39,717 nucleotides of DNA from Candidatus Saccharimonadota bacterium (GTDB lineage Bacteria > Patescibacteriota > Saccharimonadia > Saccharimonadales > UBA4665): the NCBI GenBank assembly GCA_027314885.1, contig DAHUZY010000004.1:1-39717 (forward strand). The letters are read 5' to 3'. The notes under the pieces were generated by a model. That model was not told where the DNA came from and ran no database searches. It was given only the letters and a program-made list of their open reading frames with translations. Made by a program: the position numbers and the translations under genes. Shown in pieces: positions 10,149 to 27,455 of the stretch (within the stretch, counting starts at the first letter, position 1; every line of letters starts with the position of its first letter).

Positions 10149-10175
10149 CTAGCACTCTTGACTGCAGAGTGCTAA
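10149..10175. promoter_or_regulatory. CIRCE operator upstream of hrcA
   Basis: CTAGCACTC-N9-GAGTGCTAA; the N9 spacer holds the -35 (TTGACT), 17 nt before TACACT. Confidence 0.95.
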
Positions 10176-10193
10176 AATTATACACTAAAACGT

Positions 10194-11736: not shown

Positions 11737-11763
11737 TTAGCACTCTTGACACTAGAGTGCTAA
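11737..11763. promoter_or_regulatory. CIRCE operator upstream of dnaK
   Basis: Perfect TTAGCACTC-N9-GAGTGCTAA; TTGACA (11746-11751)-N17-TACACT (11769-11774) promoter embedded. Confidence 0.97.
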
Positions 11764-11826
11764 TTTATTACACTAGCAGTAGTTACAATTGACTGCTAAA
11801 TATAATGGAAAGGTAAAAAAGTATAC

Positions 11827-16840: not shown

Positions 16841-17798
16841 TTATTGTACACACTCCTGCCATACCATGCAACACACTATCCCATCTGGTGGCTTATATTT
16901 TTGTATATCTCTTATGCTTTTGCTACTTTTCCAAGCAATGCCCAGAACATAGGTTGATAGTCATTGCGGTGGCTGTACCTAAATGCATATTCATCCGCAT
17001 AAGCCTGCAAGTATTGAGGGTCTACATGGCGGTAAACCCCCTTAATCCCTCGCTTCATGTTTGACCATAAGTTCTCAACGTTTTGTGTATGAACTCTGCC
17101 TACAACATACTGTCGTTCACCATGATTAACCGTGTTATGCTCATAGCCCCGCCTGTTAAGTAATTTGTAAGAGCCATGCTCATCTGTGTAGACAATAGCA
17201 CTATTATCAACGCTTTTCTCAATCTCAGGTACAAGAACTCTAACGCCACTACTTTTAACATGACGTACTTTAGCTCTACCTTCACGCTCAACCATACCGA
17301 ATACAACTTGTTTGTTATGAGGCTTAGCAGTACTGCGACGTTGAGGGTTAGCTCCTAGATACATTTCATCTAATTCAACCTCGCCAGTTAAATTACTATC
17401 CTCATCATCGCTCATCATAGAGCGTATTTGATGAAACATACGCCAAGCCGTCTTGTAGGTTACGCCAAGCTCTCTCTCAAGCTGTTTAGCTGATATACCA
17501 GCTCTAGTGCTAGCCATTAGATAAATTGCATAGAACCATAGAGTAAGAGGAGTAGATGACTTATGAAAGATAGTGTCTGCTGTAGGGTGTACATGATGAC
17601 CACATACTTCACAGCTAAATGACTTACGAGTTTTCATTAAGTGGTGAGGCGTAATCTTTTTACAGACTTTACAGGTAATGCCGTCAGGATATAGATATTC
17701 TTTAAGCCAGATTAAACACGCCTGCTCATCTGGGAAGTCAGTTTGAAAGTCTTTAATTGTATACCTCATTGTTCTCATACTTACAGTATACACCCCTG
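16841..17798. mobile_element. Probable IS1595-type insertion sequence (boundaries uncertain)
   Basis: Single transposase ORF bounded by imperfect 18-nt direct repeats TTAYHGTAYACACYCCTG (16841-16858, 17781-17798). No clear terminal inverted repeat or TSD recognised. Confidence 0.4.
16912..17778 (-). CDS. IS1595-family (ISXO2-like) transposase
   Basis: N-terminal Zn-finger CKVCKKI...CEVCGHHVHPTADTIFHKSSTPL, ELDEMYLG, YTDEHGSY, NVENLWSNMKRGI; start refined to 17778 (MRTMRY), 6 nt after TATACT with TTGACA 17 nt upstream. Confidence 0.93.
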   Translation of the reverse strand: MRTMRYTIKDFQTDFPDEQACLIWLKEYLYPDGITCKVCKKITPHHLMKTRKSFSCEVCGHHVHPTADTIFHKSSTPLTLWFYAIYLMASTRAGISAKQLERELGVTYKTAWRMFHQIRSMMSDDEDSNLTGEVELDEMYLGANPQRRSTAKPHNKQVVFGMVEREGRAKVRHVKSSGVRVLVPEIEKSVDNSAIVYTDEHGSYKLLNRRGYEHNTVNHGERQYVVGRVHTQNVENLWSNMKRGIKGVYRHVDPQYLQAYADEYAFRYSHRNDYQPMFWALLGKVAKA

Positions 17799-20103: not shown

Positions 20104-20180
20104 GGGCCCATAGCTCAGCCGGTTAGAGCACCTGCCTTTTAAGCAGGGTGTCGTGGGTTCGAATCCCACTGGGCCCTCCA
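20104..20180 (+). tRNA. tRNA-Lys (anticodon TTT), CCA encoded
   Basis: GGGCCCATAGCTCAGCCGGTTAGAGCACCTGCCTTTTAAGCAGGGTGTCGTGGGTTCGAATCCCACTGGGCCCTCCA. Confidence 0.97.
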
Positions 20181-20258: not shown

Positions 20259-20879
20259 TTAGATTTTAGAATCAAAAAATAACTTAGCGGAAGTATTAAC
20301 AAGCTCGGCGGCAGTTTTGTTTACTTTTTTTGAATACGCTTTGCTCATTTTATATCCATAAGTGTAAGCAAACCATCTCTGAGTATCTTTACCACCAAAA
20401 AACCAATCACTATGATTGTAATCCCTATTATCTAAGTTCTTCTTAGCTTTGTCTATTTCTTCTTGCTTGATTTTGACCTGGGCATATATAGGAGTTTTAC
20501 CGCTATATTCTTCTTCAAACAACGTAGCTAACCCCTCAGAAATCATTGCTTCACCAAGTGATAAACCATATCCTGGATTACGCCATCTCATGCAGTGATG
20601 CGTTTCATGAAGAATAGTTGATACCATATCTTCAACTGTAAAAGTTGTGAACTTAGGGTCTAGGCTGACGTAGATATTGTAAGGACCAGGCGAATAGCCC
20701 CCAATACCAATCTCTGGTATAACGTTCATTGGAGCATTGACGAAGATAACGTCAATTTTGTCAGCATTTAGCTTGTTGCGAATAATTTTTAAGCCTTCGC
20801 TAAAGCCTTCTTCTATTTTTCTAATAATCTCTGTCCCAAACTCGTTACTTGCATTTGAAATATATTTATTGATTGGCAT
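20259..20879 (-). CDS. Putative zinc metallopeptidase (DUF2268-like)
   Basis: HETHHCMRW ... EAMISEGLATLFEEEY (HExxH plus downstream E). Confidence 0.75.
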   Translation of the reverse strand: MPINKYISNASNEFGTEIIRKIEEGFSEGLKIIRNKLNADKIDVIFVNAPMNVIPEIGIGGYSPGPYNIYVSLDPKFTTFTVEDMVSTILHETHHCMRWRNPGYGLSLGEAMISEGLATLFEEEYSGKTPIYAQVKIKQEEIDKAKKNLDNRDYNHSDWFFGGKDTQRWFAYTYGYKMSKAYSKKVNKTAAELVNTSAKLFFDSKI

Positions 20880-20915
20880 AGATATACAGTAACATGCTAA
20901 ACGATATAACCCCTA

Positions 20916-21044
20916 CTAGGAATATATTGCATTCAACCTTTTCTTACTAAGTTGCTCTTGTCTATATAGATTATCTAGAAGTACCCTCCATCTAAGAAGT
21001 TCTTCAACCAAAATATATAACTTATTTCTTTGGTGGACCTCCAT
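20916..21044 (-). CDS. Microprotein family member 1 (42 aa): MEVHQRNKLYILVEELLRWRVLLDNLYRQEQLSKKRLNAIYS
   Basis: Manual translation; same length and reading frame as 24629-24757; -10-like TATATT 6 nt before ATG. Confidence 0.65.
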   Translation of the reverse strand: MEVHQRNKLYILVEELLRWRVLLDNLYRQEQLSKKRLNAIYS

Positions 21045-21072
21045 TTTGGTAATATATAACTACAGTAACTTC

Positions 21073-21480
21073 TTAGATTTTATGTGTCTTTGCAACTTTT
21101 ACAGCTACAAAGCTCAAACCATAAGTTACTATTCCTACACCAAAGAACAACGCCATCAACAATACCGCAGCATTATTTCCATTTTTCGCAGCAACTACAC
21201 CTGAAGAAAATGCACCTGCTATAGACAAAAAGCCAATCACTGGTTTTACGCCCAAAAGATGCGAGCTGCGTGAAGTGAGAATATGGGCAAACGAACCAAA
21301 CATTAAGCCAACGCCCAGTGCTATATGCGCAACAAGTATTGTTGTCTGCACAGCGCTATGCTTGTGCGGATTATAACCAATTACTGTCGTAAGCAGCGTA
21401 CCAAGTACAAACTCTGCTATTAGCATAATGAGCAACCAGGTGACTGCTCTCTCTACAATACGATACTTTCCATCTTTCAT
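21073..21480 (-). CDS. Hypothetical four-TM membrane protein
   Basis: Four hydrophobic helices; next to the SHOCT gene, same strand. Confidence 0.7.
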   Translation of the reverse strand: MKDGKYRIVERAVTWLLIMLIAEFVLGTLLTTVIGYNPHKHSAVQTTILVAHIALGVGLMFGSFAHILTSRSSHLLGVKPVIGFLSIAGAFSSGVVAAKNGNNAAVLLMALFFGVGIVTYGLSFVAVKVAKTHKI

Positions 21481-21482
21481 GT

Positions 21483-21722
21483 CTAATCTTCCTTTAAATC
21501 TTGTTTCACTTTGTTAAATTGTTCCTTGGTTATCTCGCCCTTGGCGTAACGAGCTTTGAGTATTTCAAGTGCGTCTTCGTTAGTACGATGGTGCCAATAT
21601 CCATGTCGCCAGCGGCCTCCCCACAACCAAAAGCGCCCAAAGACTAAGAAAATAACTAGAATAAATATGAACCACCCAATCGGCCACCAGAACCAGTGGC
21701 TGTTATTGAAATATGCTTGCAT
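21483..21722 (-). CDS. Membrane protein with C-terminal SHOCT domain
   Basis: TM plus DALEILKARYAKGEITKEQFNKVKQDL; SD AAAGGAG. Confidence 0.88.
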   Translation of the reverse strand: MQAYFNNSHWFWWPIGWFIFILVIFLVFGRFWLWGGRWRHGYWHHRTNEDALEILKARYAKGEITKEQFNKVKQDLKED

Positions 21723-21765
21723 GTTTTGCTCCTTTCGTTAGTTTTACTAAGAAGGGTCAACATGC

Positions 21766-21893
21766 AAAAAGCCTTACACGTCAACCCAGACCGGCTAAAT
21801 ACAATACCGGTCTGGAAATTTACGAATAAGGCTTGAAAAGTCTTACTTGGAGATACGGGCAAATACCCGATCTGTTCGGTGACCGAAGTCACC
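21766..21893 (-). promoter_or_regulatory. Structured 5' leader / attenuator-like element upstream of the SHOCT gene
   Basis: Hairpins on minus: GGTGAC-TTCG-GTCACC; AGAT-CGGG..CCCG-ATCT; CCAGACCGG..CCGGTCTGG nested in AAGCCTTA..TAAGGCTT followed by TTT. Confidence 0.6.
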
Positions 21894-22125
21894 TAAATAA
21901 ATTTCCTATACCATTGTACTATATTCAAGCGAAGCTAGAATTAGAGATCTCAATTATAAGTCTGAAATAATGGGACGTGATTTAATTAATTCGGTTGCTA
22001 CAGCGTTCACGATGGCCCTCCAAATATATTCAATGCAGCCTCATCACATTTCATAAAAATTTTATATATTTACATTAACTAAAGTGGGGTTTAAAGTTAA
22101 GTATAGATAAGATAAAAAGCAATAA

Positions 22126-23349
22126 ATGAAAAAACTGTCATATTTACTAGTAGCAACCTTATTCATTAGTTTCATAAATGCTCCATCTGTGTTTGCTGCT
22201 GGGTATACTTGGACTGATGTTACTGCATCAGGGGCTGAACATAACCTAGCTTGGCAATCAATAACCTCCAGCTCATCTGGCCAATACCTGGCGGCAGTAG
22301 CACACCCGGGTGATATCTATACCTCATCTAACTATGGAGCCAGCTGGACTGATGTTACTGCATCGGGAGTCGGACATAATCTAGTCTGGTTTTCCATTAC
22401 TTCAAACTCCACCGGCCAATACCTAGCGGCAGTAGCTATAGGTGGTGATATCTATACCTCATCTAACTATGGAGCCAGCTGGACTGATGTTACTGCATCA
22501 GGGGCTGAACATAACTTAAATTGGGTTTCCATTACCTCAAACTCCACCGGGCAATATTTAGCGGCGGTAGTGAGTAATGGTGATATCTATACCTCATCTA
22601 ACTATGGAGCCAGCTGGACTGATGTTACGCCATCAGGGGCTGAACATAACCTAGCTTGGCTTTCCATAGCTTCTAGTTCAACTGGCCAATACCTAGCGGC
22701 AGTTGTGCAAGGTAGTGGCGATATCTATACCTCATCTAACTATGGAGCCAGCTGGACTGATGTTACCGCATCAGGAGTCGGACATAACCTAAATTGGTAT
22801 TCAATAACTTCGGATTCTACCGGCCAATACCTAGCGGCAGTTGTGCAAGGTAATGGCGATATATATACTTCCTCTAACTATGGGGCAAGCTGGACTGATG
22901 TTACCGCATCAGGAGTCGGACATAACCTCAATTGGTATTCAATCACCTCCAGCTCATCTGGCCAGTATTTGGCAGCAGCTGTACTTGGCGGAGATATATA
23001 TACCTCCTCTAACTATGGAGCCAGCTGGACTGATGTTACTGCATCAGGGGCTGAGCATAATTTATTTTGGCAATCAATCACCTCCAGCTCATCTGGCCAG
23101 TATTTGGCAGCAGGTGTAAATGGCGGCGATATTTATACTGCCAATAACACTTCATTGGCTCCAGTCAGTTCAAGTAGCAGCTCTTCTCCTGCTTCTGCAC
23201 CTAACACTTCTACTCCCTCTGCTCCTAACACTGGCTATGGCCAACCTATACCCGCCACTACTAAGACTATTATCTATAGCTTAGCTTTAGGTTCGTTTAT
23301 AGCCTTAGGTTCAGGGCTATATTTAAGGAAGAGAAGCTTAAAAGACTAA
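22126..23349 (+). CDS. Secreted/anchored Asp-box beta-propeller-like repeat protein with APNTGYG-TM-basic tail
   Basis: Signal peptide MKKLSYLLVATLFISFINAPSVFAA; repeated SSNYGASWTDVTASG (Asp-box SxNxGxSW); Ser/Pro linker; SAPNTGYG, TM, LRKRSLKD. Confidence 0.88.
   Translation: MKKLSYLLVATLFISFINAPSVFAAGYTWTDVTASGAEHNLAWQSITSSSSGQYLAAVAHPGDIYTSSNYGASWTDVTASGVGHNLVWFSITSNSTGQYLAAVAIGGDIYTSSNYGASWTDVTASGAEHNLNWVSITSNSTGQYLAAVVSNGDIYTSSNYGASWTDVTPSGAEHNLAWLSIASSSTGQYLAAVVQGSGDIYTSSNYGASWTDVTASGVGHNLNWYSITSDSTGQYLAAVVQGNGDIYTSSNYGASWTDVTASGVGHNLNWYSITSSSSGQYLAAAVLGGDIYTSSNYGASWTDVTASGAEHNLFWQSITSSSSGQYLAAGVNGGDIYTANNTSLAPVSSSSSSSPASAPNTSTPSAPNTGYGQPIPATTKTIIYSLALGSFIALGSGLYLRKRSLKD
22210..23150 (+). 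repeat. Seven in-frame tandem coding repeats, period 135/138 bp
   Basis: TGGACTGATGTT occurs at 22210, 22345, 22480, 22615, 22753, 22891, 23026. Confidence 0.93.
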
Positions 23350-23481
23350 CTACTTTAGTTCGCTTACACTTAAATCTAAATCTATTTAATCTTTCGCTTT
23401 AATTTCCAACAAGACTAGTAAAGACAACTAGTCTTTCATTAAACTTAATTTAATAACGACAAGTATGGCTAAATGATTTTG

Positions 23482-23934
23482 TCATTTCTCAACAATATTT
23501 GGGGCACCCTTGCCAGTGGTTATTAACTTAAATAGGCTGTCGTTAATATAGTAATCCCAGGCAGGAGCGCATTTATCATAGCAGGCTATTGATGGCACCA
23601 ATCCTTTATGAGTAAACGTTAATAGAGTTTTATCGCCACTCTTAGTAATGTCAAAAACAATATCTGTGCCTGTCCATTCTTCTTTATCTTTCACAAAACT
23701 GATATGGCTACCTATAACATGCCATGTAACGTTTTTATTAGGTACTAGCTTGGTAATCTTTTGCTTAGAATAGTGAATATCCTGGTAACGATAAGTCCAT
23801 TCTGAACCTAATTTATCTGTAGCGCCTTCAATATTACCCGACCACCAGTCACGAACATTGATAACTGCATTAAAAACCTCAACTGGAGATTGCTTTACTT
23901 CAAACGTGATTGTCAGGTCATTTTGATTAGTCAT
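23482..23934 (-). CDS. SRPBCC/AHSA1-like domain protein
   Basis: ITFEVKQSPVEVFNAVINVRDWWSGNIEG...FTHKGLVPSIACYDKCAPAWDYYINDSLFKLITTGKG. Confidence 0.85.
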   Translation of the reverse strand: MTNQNDLTITFEVKQSPVEVFNAVINVRDWWSGNIEGATDKLGSEWTYRYQDIHYSKQKITKLVPNKNVTWHVIGSHISFVKDKEEWTGTDIVFDITKSGDKTLLTFTHKGLVPSIACYDKCAPAWDYYINDSLFKLITTGKGAPNIVEK

Positions 23935-23986
23935 ACATATAATAATAGCAGTGGCTTAAAAGTACATCCATAACTTATAACTCCCA

Positions 23987-24076
23987 CTAGGAATATATTG
24001 CTTTCAACCTTTTCCTGCTAAGTTGTTCTTGGCATATAGATTATCCAGAAGCACTCTCCATCTAAGAAGTTCATTG
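23987..24076 (-). pseudogene. Frameshifted copy of the microprotein family
   Basis: ELLRWRVLLDNLY retained; 1-nt deletion relative to copy 1, then out of frame, yet nucleotide similarity continues to TTCCTAG. Confidence 0.6.
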
Positions 24077-24140
24077 TTGCCTATCTCATAGGAGTTACAA
24101 TACATACACAGACTTTGTATTATTGTTATATAATATACTC

Positions 24141-24359
24141 ATGAGAAGCAATACATCATATACCGCTATTATTGAACAGGACGCAACCACAGGATATTAT
24201 GTGGCCTATATTCCCGATTTACCTGGAGCTCATACTCAAGCAGAAACATTAGAAGAATTAAAAGATAATTTAAAAGAGGTTGTCGAGTTAGTGCTTGAAG
24301 AAAATCCTAAAGGTAGACCAGAATCATACTTTATAGGCACACAACTAGTGACTATTTAG
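24141..24359 (+). CDS. hicB: HicB-like antitoxin
   Basis: YTAIIEQDATTGYYVAYIPDLPGAHTQAETLEELKDNLKEVVELVLEE; start refined to ATG 24141, 6 nt after TATAAT. Confidence 0.92.
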   Translation: MRSNTSYTAIIEQDATTGYYVAYIPDLPGAHTQAETLEELKDNLKEVVELVLEENPKGRPESYFIGTQLVTI

Positions 24360-24368
24360 GTAAAGATT

Positions 24369-24596
24369 ATGGGTAGCGATTTACCTGTTTTAAAGCCAAA
24401 AGAAGTGGTAAAAATTCTCAACAATCTTGGCTTTAAGTTGGTTAGACAGAAAGGCTCACATCAACAATTTCGTCATTCTGATGGTAGGGCCACTACTGTG
24501 CCCATGCATAAGTCCAGGGATTTATCGCCTATTCTACTAAGGCAAATTTGTAAGGATATAAACCTTACTACTGACGAGTTTTTAAAAACTAAATGA
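24369..24596 (+). CDS. hicA: HicA-like toxin (mRNA interferase)
   Basis: VVKILNNLGFKLVRQKGSHQQFRHSDGRATTVPMH. Confidence 0.92.
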   Translation: MGSDLPVLKPKEVVKILNNLGFKLVRQKGSHQQFRHSDGRATTVPMHKSRDLSPILLRQICKDINLTTDEFLKTK

Positions 24597-24628
24597 ATTG
24601 TTACCTCTTAAACAGCGTATAACCCTCA

Positions 24629-24757
24629 CTAGGAATATGATGCATCCATCCTTTTCTTGCTGAGCTGTTTCTGCCTATATAAATTATCCAGAAGCACTCT
24701 CCACCTAAGAAGTTCCTGGGTGAAAATATATAACTTATTTCTTTGGTGGACCTCCAA
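24629..24757 (-). CDS. Microprotein family member 3 (42 aa, TTG start): LEVHQRNKLYIFTQELLRWRVLLDNLYRQKQLSKKRMDASYS
   Basis: Same length/frame as 20916-21044; TAAATA 6 nt before TTG. Confidence 0.6.
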   Translation of the reverse strand: MEVHQRNKLYIFTQELLRWRVLLDNLYRQKQLSKKRMDASYS

Positions 24758-24794
24758 ACTTACTATTTAGCAAGCTGCTTGTTAAAATGACGCT

Positions 24795-25763
24795 ATGATA
24801 AGTGATGAAATTATAGCTCTTGCAAGAAATATTAGTCCAAATCTTGAGCCGAACTTAATATCCTTACTGCAAGGTGGTTTTAGTTCTCAGGCATATAAAG
24901 TAAGCCCAAAAGATAGTGCGCCTTTCGTATTACTTGTCGAAAGAGAAGGTGGTGTAAGCAATCAAGATTATGGACTGGCTTATGTGGTTCTGACTCTTCT
25001 CAAAGAACATAAATATAGATATTCTCCAAAAGCGCTATGGTTAAATGACAATCACACGGCTTTAGCCATAAGTTATTTTGACGGAACGGTTTCTAATAAA
25101 GCCAACCTAAATAATTTAGATACAGAAAAATTAGCCATCCAGGTTATAGATAGCTTGTTAGACACATCAGTTATTGCTTTGGAAAAGTACAAACAATTAG
25201 CCAAAGAGTATGGTGTAACTCAAAATCCTATAGAGACCTCTAAAGAGGGAGCTAAACTTTACGGTACTGAGTGGCTAGAAATTGTAGAACATTCATGTCC
25301 TGACAAAGATATTATTGACTGGTTAAAACCAAGAGTCGAGCGTTCAGTCAGGTTGATTAACGAAGCTAAAGAACATACGCCTACTTTCGGGCACGGTGAC
25401 CCCAGTAACCCTAATATATTAATCAAGTCAAACGGTGATTTTATGTTGGTAGACTGGGCTTCGGCCAAATTTCATACATCAGGTCCAGAGTTTTTTGTCG
25501 CCTATACTACGCATTTAACTGACTTCATGAAACCCTATAGAGAAGTGCTCATAAAACATGTAGCCAATATGCTAAATATCCCTGTAGGTGAATTTAGAGA
25601 TAGAGTGACCAACTTTAGGTTAGCTTCGGAAGTTTTTGATGTTAACTGGGCGGCTATGATGATGGCCAAGGTTAATTCTGGTGAAACAAAAGGCGATGTT
25701 GATGAATTGCGCAAGATAGCCCATGAACGTATTAAATTATACGAACAGGATTTTGAAACTTAG
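24795..25763 (+). CDS. APH-family phosphotransferase
   Basis: FGHGDPSNPNILIKSNGDFMLVDWASAKF (Brenner-type motif and DW). Confidence 0.85.
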   Translation: MISDEIIALARNISPNLEPNLISLLQGGFSSQAYKVSPKDSAPFVLLVEREGGVSNQDYGLAYVVLTLLKEHKYRYSPKALWLNDNHTALAISYFDGTVSNKANLNNLDTEKLAIQVIDSLLDTSVIALEKYKQLAKEYGVTQNPIETSKEGAKLYGTEWLEIVEHSCPDKDIIDWLKPRVERSVRLINEAKEHTPTFGHGDPSNPNILIKSNGDFMLVDWASAKFHTSGPEFFVAYTTHLTDFMKPYREVLIKHVANMLNIPVGEFRDRVTNFRLASEVFDVNWAAMMMAKVNSGETKGDVDELRKIAHERIKLYEQDFET

Positions 25764-25855
25764 TGATAAAGTTCGAAATCCGTACCTATAATACCCCTCC
25801 AACGCTCCATTTCATCAACCAGGGAGTGTAAATTATCTGTGCGCTGCACCTCCAA
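25760..25855 (-). CDS. Divergent microprotein family member 4 (31 aa, TTG start): LEVQRTDNLHSLVDEMERWRGIIGTDFELYH
   Basis: Aligns gap-free with members 1/3 over LV-[ED]-E-x-x-RWR. Confidence 0.4.
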   Translation of the reverse strand: MEVQRTDNLHSLVDEMERWRGIIGTDFELYH

Positions 25856-25936
25856 TTTAAGGTCATATACGACCACAATAACTTCTTAGTCATGAACAGA
25901 AATCCAAGAACCAGTCTATACCCCGTTAATTAATAG

Positions 25937-27172
25937 CTAGTTAAGTATAGGCTGGTGTTTGTATATTAAGACTATGCCTACACCAGTTGATACTACTCCT
26001 ACGGTCGCTATTATGTAAACGAATGGGCTAAAAGTAGATGGCCTACCAAAGCCTGTATTAGGTGCATTCGGTGAGCTGGTAGTATTATTTATGGCTATGG
26101 AAGTGCTGTTGCTGTTTGTAACTACCGGATATGGTGTTACGTAAGCATAGTAGACGCCATTTAATATGCTTGAATTATGCTGGCGCTGGCCGCCTAAGAC
26201 ATAAACATAATTGTTATAGGTTACAGCTGTAGCTGAATCTAGAGCTTGAGGTAAGCTGTTAGGACTAGTAGTCCAGCTGCCAACCGTGCCGTCGCTGTTA
26301 AGAGCTGCATAGTAGACATTGCTTTGATCGCCATTAGTGCCATTGTAACCACCCAAAATATAGACATTGCCGTTAACTGTAACAGCGTCTTCACCCCATA
26401 ACTCTTGAGGAAGGGTATTGGAATCTGTTAACCAGCTACCGACCGAACCATCACTGTTTAACTTAGCGAAATAAATGGTATTAAGTATGCTGCCAGTAGT
26501 TTCGCCGCCAAAAACATAGACATAGCCATTAGCTGTTACAGAAGCAGCAGTATCCAAACCTTGAGGTAAAGTGCTTGGGCTAGTAGTCCAGCTACCGATT
26601 GATCCATTGCTGTTAACCTTGGCATAGTAGACAGTATTGTTTTCAGTTCCACTATACCCACCAATTACATATATATAACCGTTATCTACGACTGATGTTG
26701 CGTCATCAAGTATTGATGGAAGTACCGTGCCATATGTCCAGTTACCGATTGACCCATCGCTGTTTAGCTTGGCATAAAATGTTGCTTGGGTAAAGTTGAT
26801 ACTGTTATACCCACCCATTACATAAACGTAGCCGTTATAGGTAACTGCGGTGATTCCTGATAGATTTAGCGGTAAAGTGCTTGGGCTAGTAGTCCAGCTA
26901 CCGATTGATCCATTGCTGTTAACCTTGGCATAGTAAGTGCTGTTGAGATAATTACCGACGCTGCCATAACCGCCAATTTCATAAACGTAGCCGTTATAGG
27001 TAACGGCCGCTGCCCCTTGGACCCCTTGAGGTAAAGTGCTTGGGCTAGTAGTCCAGCTACCGATTGATCCAGGTGCTGCTGCAAATACTGTAGGTGCTAT
27101 TAAAATAGATGCCAAAAGGACAGTTGTTAGCCAAAGACTGGCTCTCTTTAAATGCTTATTCAAGTACTTCAT
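25937..27172 (-). CDS. Secreted/anchored Kelch-like beta-propeller protein with APNTGFG-TM tail
   Basis: Signal peptide MKYLNKHLKRASLWLTTVLLASILIAPTVFAA; repeated AVTYNGYVYVxGGY...YYAKVNSNGSIGSWTTSPSTLP; NAPNTGFG and TM. SD AGGAG before ATG 27172. Confidence 0.88.
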   Translation of the reverse strand: MKYLNKHLKRASLWLTTVLLASILIAPTVFAAAPGSIGSWTTSPSTLPQGVQGAAAVTYNGYVYEIGGYGSVGNYLNSTYYAKVNSNGSIGSWTTSPSTLPLNLSGITAVTYNGYVYVMGGYNSINFTQATFYAKLNSDGSIGNWTYGTVLPSILDDATSVVDNGYIYVIGGYSGTENNTVYYAKVNSNGSIGSWTTSPSTLPQGLDTAASVTANGYVYVFGGETTGSILNTIYFAKLNSDGSVGSWLTDSNTLPQELWGEDAVTVNGNVYILGGYNGTNGDQSNVYYAALNSDGTVGSWTTSPNSLPQALDSATAVTYNNYVYVLGGQRQHNSSILNGVYYAYVTPYPVVTNSNSTSIAINNTTSSPNAPNTGFGRPSTFSPFVYIIATVGVVSTGVGIVLIYKHQPILN

Positions 27173-27248
27173 CTTACTCCTACGCATAAGTCTTTATTTA
27201 ATTATAATAAAATAGACAATTATAGTTTGCAAGTATATCCTTGTATAT

Positions 27249-27455
27249 TGAGGACTATACTGCAATTATTGAACAAGACGCAACCACAGGGTTTTATGTG
27301 GCTTATATTCCTGATTTACCTGGTGCACACACCCAAGCAGCAACACCTGAAGAACTCAAAGATAATATTAAGAGGTCGTTGAGCTTGTACTAGAAGAAAA
27401 CCCTAAAAGTAAACCAGAATCATACTTCATTGGCAATCAACTTCTAACTATATAG
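27249..27455 (+). pseudogene. Decayed hicB copy without adjacent hicA
   Basis: YTAIIEQDATTGFYVAYIPDLPGAHTQAATPEELKDNI, then frameshift; downstream frame EVVELVLEENPKSKPESYFIGNQLLTI; initiator region degraded. Confidence 0.85.

Follow-up and report, generated by a model that had tools for sequence, protein, structure and literature searches.

The short minus-strand open reading frames (ORFs) repeated within 20.9-25.9 kb of the analysed DNA stretch (39,717 nucleotides, here called the window) are very probably detached 3'-terminal coding pieces of a large serine recombinase (LSR) gene that carries attP within its own coding sequence. Each piece would encode a C-terminal tail of 33-42 residues, and LSR-less derivatives ending in such tails would have piled up at the gene for tRNA-Lys.

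Four related repeats lie on the minus strand of this region (Table 1). The earlier note had described them as real repeats with two intact ORFs, and indeed copies 1 and 3 are both intact 42-residue ORFs with a protein identity of 81%, their match being far above chance (E=4e-19). The frameshift that it had seen in a further copy is the single-base deletion of copy 2, where in addition unrelated sequence stands in place of the first 11 codons, an arrangement common to three other genomes. Its divergent 31-aa member corresponds to copy 4 (ORF 25855-25760). The proposed shared core LV-[ED]-E fails for copy 3, which reads FTQELLRWR at this place. A check for repeats elsewhere in the genome had also been suggested; a search of the 929-kb assembly revealed no convincing copy beyond these four, and gave one weak match to the A2 profile (C33:25112, E=0.004). 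Relatives of the repeat, the search for which had been suggested as a check, were found across the Saccharimonadales: the repeat matches at E<=1 in 44 of the 93 genomes of the family, and the A2 profile at E<=0.01 in 99 of the 393 genomes of the order. In these relatives the element often occurs several times on one contig strand, about 0.6-3 kb apart, with accessory genes between. Searches of Pfam, NCBIfam, PHROGs and PDB with the tail returned nothing meaningful, and a 590-aa open frame in G056, considered as a longer host protein, proved to be a primase-like protein matched by chance.

Table 1. Features of the cassette array and its tRNA anchor in the window.
Feature	Position	Strand	Description
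tRNA-Lys(UUU)	20104..20180	+	array anchor; 3' end ..CCCTCCA, followed by A, supplies the core; ARAGORN/Rfam
DUF2268 Zn-protease-like gene	20259..20879	-	cargo of the first cassette; Pfam E=1.5e-26
Copy 1	20905..21044	-	tail ORF 21044-20916, ATG..TAG, MEVHQRNKLYILVEELLRWRVLLDNLYRQEQLSKKRLNAIYS and stop, plus conserved 3' edge
Left end of next cassette	21045..21085	.	CTAAGAAGTTACTGTAGTTATATATTACC in ORF orientation; supplies the -10-like box; inner limit approximate
SRPBCC/AHSA1 gene	23482..23934	-	cargo; adjoins a different element in G030
Copy 2	23976..24079	-	decayed tail; 11 leading codons replaced and one nucleotide deleted; hicAB-linked in four genomes
hicB-hicA toxin-antitoxin genes	24141..24596	+	cargo; Pfam HicB_lk_antitox, HicA_toxin
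Copy 3	24618..24757	-	tail ORF 24757-24629, TTG..TAG, LEVHQRNKLYIFTQELLRWRVLLDNLYRQKQLSKKRMDASYS and stop, plus 3' edge
APH-like phosphotransferase gene	24795..25763	+	cargo; Pfam PF01636 E=6e-6
Copy 4	25760..25855	-	second Lys-type tail subtype, shortened; 31-residue ORF, LEVQRTDNLHSLVDEMERWRGIIGTDFELYH and stop

Every intact ORF has its start precisely where 6-9 nt repeat the 3' end of a tRNA, in the window that of tRNA-Lys. The 5' edge of the Lys-type elements, TTGGAGG, is the reverse complement of the 3' end of tRNA-Lys(UUU); elements of other genera have the edge TTGGTGC, which matches the tRNA-Gly 3' end in reverse complement, and left ends of cassettes there abut tRNA-Gly(GCC). The array region begins directly at tRNA-Lys(UUU) in seven relatives, and in the window, too, the first cassette comes after this tRNA gene. 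The apparent start codon consists of one neighbouring base and the TG from the complement of CCA, and it varies (ATG, TTG, GTG, CTG, also CTA and CCG) because its first base is whatever precedes the tRNA-derived TGG. No conserved start codon, promoter or ribosome site is shared among the regions upstream of the elements; this upstream DNA is part of the adjoining cassette, and a terminator-like hairpin is frequent in it. The -10-like boxes pointed out in the earlier note are present, but they differ between copies and are part of the neighbouring cassette's left end; a block similar to the one next to copy 1 is also found beside copy 4 (25856-25896) and beside other Lys-type elements. Direct repeats matched to the element class lie about 90 nt apart, one in the ORF and the outer one past the stop codon at the 3' edge of the element (20905, 23976 and 24618). 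They read GTTATA in Lys-type elements, GTTTACAC/GTTACAC in Gly-type elements and TTTACACT/TTAACACT in the copy-4 subtype, and are possibly recombinase contacts.

The repeats are coding and under purifying selection, as the earlier note had maintained against their reading as a non-coding repeat. Diversity by codon position amounts to 24/24/52%, and dN/dS in the ORF frame (Nei-Gojobori) comes to 0.25 among the Lys-type copies (n = 23) and to 0.20 among the Gly-type copies (n = 40), well away from the value near 1 that would have spoken against a protein; the frame is open in 18 of the 23 and 36 of the 40 copies, respectively. Other frames show dN/dS of about 1 or above, except for one frame on the opposite strand with the same wobble position, which is interrupted by stops in 12 of 23 Lys-type and 31 of 40 Gly-type copies. 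A conserved RNA fold, sought with RNAalifold against column-shuffled controls, was not detected (z -0.95 to 0.37), so that RNA structure is not better conserved than the reading frame. The strong synonymous bias and the lack of a conserved fold, together with a protein motif that is kept across tRNA targets with different core sequences, make it highly improbable that the element is a non-coding recombination end (attC-like or an att arm) or an RNA element with an incidental frame, even though it marks the cassette end, its first bases copy a tRNA 3' end, and the direct repeats and the conserved 3' edge past the stop suggest a function at the DNA level as well. Purifying selection on the frame is equally expected for an LSR tail as for a microprotein gene. 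In cassettes without an LSR, some 80-90% of the tested copies preserve an open tail, which we count against its reading as an LSR tail.

Judged from sequence comparison, the ORF closes what appears to be a mobile cassette. In an all-against-all comparison, several segments shared among cassettes common to several genomes end at the ORF-start edge of the element, and the same cargo (hicAB, the SRPBCC/AHSA1 gene, the DUF2268 protease and others) adjoins different elements in different genomes. The first cassette of the window also occurs in G039, where the segment 21041-20293 corresponds to L038:6444-7193. Cargo that is mostly antisense and neighbours that are shuffled recall cassette arrays of the integron type, driven by a tyrosine recombinase, but no integron integrase was found, the genomes usually hold one Xer-like enzyme and none lies in the array of the window, no attC arms were seen, and the anchor is a tRNA end used by LSRs; we therefore regard this origin as scarcely conceivable. 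Inverted R''/R' arms were sought at the element ends and none were found, and the survey for a tyrosine recombinase as the driver yielded, for the most part, one Xer-like enzyme in each genome or larger elements that are unrelated.

Several further features of the window were observed. A second, diverged hicB (27256-27455; 80-84% DNA identity to 24159-24359) was seen as a DNA repeat only. The stretches 22126-23349 and 25937-27187 encode repeat-rich, surface-type cargo proteins with BNR repeats and Kelch repeats, whose C-terminal regions (..APNTG..) are alike and precede a hydrophobic segment. A transposase-like gene lies near the array (16912-17793), its ISXO2/IS1595-type resemblance being judged by eye, and CIRCE-like inverted repeats (TAGCACTC-N9-GAGTGCTAA) are located at 10150-10187 and 11738-11775, upstream of an hrcA-like gene and dnaK.

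LSR genes at many of the tRNAs concerned run into the tRNA, and their last codons are tRNA antisense. The enzyme of one relative (L094) matches PF00239 (E=7.4e-17) and the A118 integrase (4kis, E=1.8e-4, residues 201-344), and PF07508 matches are present at such loci; this agrees with the make-up of an LSR, which has a resolvase catalytic N-domain and a recombinase/zinc-ribbon region and is about 500 aa long. One LSR family ends inside tRNA-Gly(GCC) in the phase N(TG G), for example with ..KKDAEASSNSF-LVRVRRL and a stop, and this is the phase of the tail in every case read. When the 393 genomes were searched with one LSR from tRNA-Gly(GCC) and the results compared with the tail matches, 28 pairs of LSR and tail within 12 kb were obtained on shared contigs, and in 27 of them strand and order were the same: tRNA, LSR, cargo and tail follow each other, with LSR and tail on one strand. 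The 28th pair involves a second, partial LSR in G028; a second LSR that lies beside a Lys-type tail in that genome was also considered as a natural LSR-tail fusion and rejected, being out of frame. When 33 loci with LSRs of this kind were scanned in six frames, leaving strand and position free, a pan-tail profile gave 29 tail matches, all 29 on the LSR strand.

The phase of the tail across the core is that of the LSR in 18 of 19 testable cases, with all three phases covered, although the profile was built partly from tails that were later refound and some of these had first been picked in the LSR phase. Phase 0 is used at tRNA-Arg (WYTT..RRWREIL; WYTTTPEVYTQLKQEGRRWREIL..), phase 1 at tRNA-Gly, tRNA-Lys(TTT) and tRNA-Glu, and phase 2 at tRNA-Lys(CTT) (TGGVSIYKL..RRWRDI; TGGVSIYKLKPFLDEIRRWRDI..); the single exception looks like a frameshifted extra copy. 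Such agreement is very unlikely to have arisen by chance, each match having a probability of about one in three, with the reservation that related islands are not independent. The protein motif E..RWR......Y is kept while core sequence and phase change with the LSR, which is hard to explain other than by an origin from the LSR. Tails at LSR islands include relatives of those in the window: one on tRNA-Lys(TTT) in G373 is 48% identical to copy 1, and full-length relatives of the copy-4 subtype occur at LSR islands on tRNA-Lys(TTT) in G028 and G041.

The earlier note had interpreted the repeats as a family of free-standing microprotein genes. Leaderless genes of this kind, for instance for a recombination accessory factor carried by every cassette, would account for the selection on the frame, for the -10-like boxes found about 6-8 nt before the NTG in some copies and for a frame that stays mostly open in LSR-less cassettes. 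They would not account for a variable start codon that lacks a common promoter or ribosome site and often has a terminator directly upstream, for a frame that follows the LSR phase at each tRNA, or for a strand and order that are fixed relative to the LSR. We regard this interpretation as quite improbable, since the ORF has no fixed start, its "-10" comes from the neighbouring cassette and its frame is in the LSR phase.

In favour of an LSR tail, the strand and order of LSR and tail and the identity of their phases place attP inside the LSR gene. Before integration, with the element circular, the recombinase frame would continue across the core, that is the 6-9-nt copy of the tRNA 3' end, and on through the tail codons. 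On inserting there, the element would restore the tRNA, and the LSR would come to lie next to it, its last codons now read from tRNA antisense (e.g. ..LVRVRRL and stop), with the tail left at the far end of the island beside the other copy of the core. Cassettes that lack an LSR but share the right end, and whose left end bears a terminator, were presumably moved in trans by LSRs, and in the window such derivatives, consisting of one or a few cargo genes and the same tail-bearing end, have probably accumulated in tandem at tRNA-Lys. The window contains no LSR, and none of this family was detected in its genome at E<=1e-20; the array therefore looks orphaned, a legacy. The LSRs elsewhere in G000 were examined as the source of the array and dismissed; they end in tRNA-Pro and tRNA-Glu, away from it. 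A contiguous gene of LSR and tail, as expected of the circular form, was not found in the searched genomes, many of which are draft MAGs. Several LSRs abut the end of another element, none of them in frame with a tail of this family; some LSR islands have no exact core copy or no tRNA in reach. A different LSR at tRNA-Lys in G050 has no tail of this family, and viral contigs yielded neither the tail nor an LSR of this family.

Tail splitting may extend to other LSRs. Another group of LSRs runs across tRNA-Gly in phase 0, and phase-0 tail-like sequences (WCSIVDVFQTAAIDAQEDYKLKHLVEQFQLSG..) lie beside other islands, which suggests that the principle is wider. Beside the phase-1 LSRs of L268, L276, L284 and L290, phase-0 sequences look like a different family of tails (WC.., ..L.EL.E..QL..). 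Their phase is that of other tRNA-Gly LSRs, and they are a possible second example. At L116 and L122 (G000:C39, G090:C12) an element at tRNA-Pro has an LSR whose 3' end overlaps the tRNA, and next to the LSR are two genes, one with a Phage_integrase domain. In L265, L266, L271 and L276 the antisense of the last ~15 LSR codons (..KKDTEVS..) forms a hairpin and T-run right after the tRNA 3' end. This structure could terminate the tRNA transcript, and the 3' end of the LSR may thus combine three roles, those of coding sequence, att arm and tRNA terminator.

An AlphaFold model of the window tail with 15 relatives is one helix spanning residues 2-41 (pLDDT 89); the single-sequence model of the LSR had too low a confidence to be of use (pLDDT 41). 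The exchange of C-termini would give the enzyme two forms, one circular and the other integrated, and our best guess, offered tentatively, is that this serves to control directionality or stability. The circular element would express an LSR with the helical tail, the integration form, and the integrated element an LSR with the short tRNA-encoded end, a locked or otherwise altered form; such a switch would replace or supplement a separate directionality factor. It is conceivable, though somewhat speculative, that this integration-dependent exchange is a built-in directionality switch, that stranded tails still act in trans, and that the arrays, driven by LSRs, parallel integrons.

Self-splitting recombinases, described as a peculiarity of archaeal tyrosine enzymes, thus appear to occur among serine recombinases in a widespread bacterial group. 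Splitting would affect more than one tRNA target and use each of the three phases, and integration would hence rewrite the C-terminus of the enzyme, which offers a testable idea of how it could sense its own integration. For the streamlined Saccharibacteria, the arrays may represent an integron-like route to collect single genes, e.g. toxin-antitoxin pairs. Our analysis also constitutes a warning that a conserved "small protein" encoded close to a tRNA gene can turn out to be a piece of a recombinase.

In the open literature (most subscription papers lay outside the search), we found no report of a serine recombinase with attP in its own gene, or of such a system in Saccharibacteria. Elements that lack a recombinase, are flanked by att sites and are stacked at one tRNA gene are familiar as CIMEs and from tandem island accretion. 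The arrays described here resemble them in all these respects, but their unit is often a single gene and their right end carries a fragment of a recombinase gene. With integrons they share tandem small cassettes, each with a related recombination end, that are shuffled between genomes and include toxin-antitoxin genes. They differ from integrons, which are defined by the attC fold and the integron integrase, in that their coding part shows no conserved fold, in the lack of an integron integrase (the only tyrosine recombinases are Xer-like or unrelated, none of them in the array), in being anchored at tRNA 3' ends and in that their repeated end encodes a protein tail.

In mycobacteriophage BPs, attP lies inside the repressor coding sequence and integration removes 33 C-terminal residues, including an ssrA-like tag, which alters the behaviour of the protein (PMC4557955). 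The likeness consists in an attP within a coding sequence and in the trimming of a C-terminus by integration; the split gene, however, is the repressor there and the recombinase here, and no degradation tag was recognised in the LSR tail, which is predicted as one long helix. The SSV-type "suicidal" integrases have attP inside the recombinase gene, are of the tyrosine type and have been described as exclusively archaeal; they are inactivated by the split, and their rescue in trans by related enzymes has been discussed (PMC8371274). As in those integrases, integration would split a recombinase gene that holds attP and leave a fragment at each end, and two in-phase parts of one frame are found separated (phase 18/19, strand 29/29, geometry 27/28). 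The enzyme here lacks the tyrosine recombinase catalytic domain of the SSV-type family: it is a bacterial serine recombinase that would lose only its C-terminal tail, receive a tRNA-encoded one instead and keep its catalytic domain whole.
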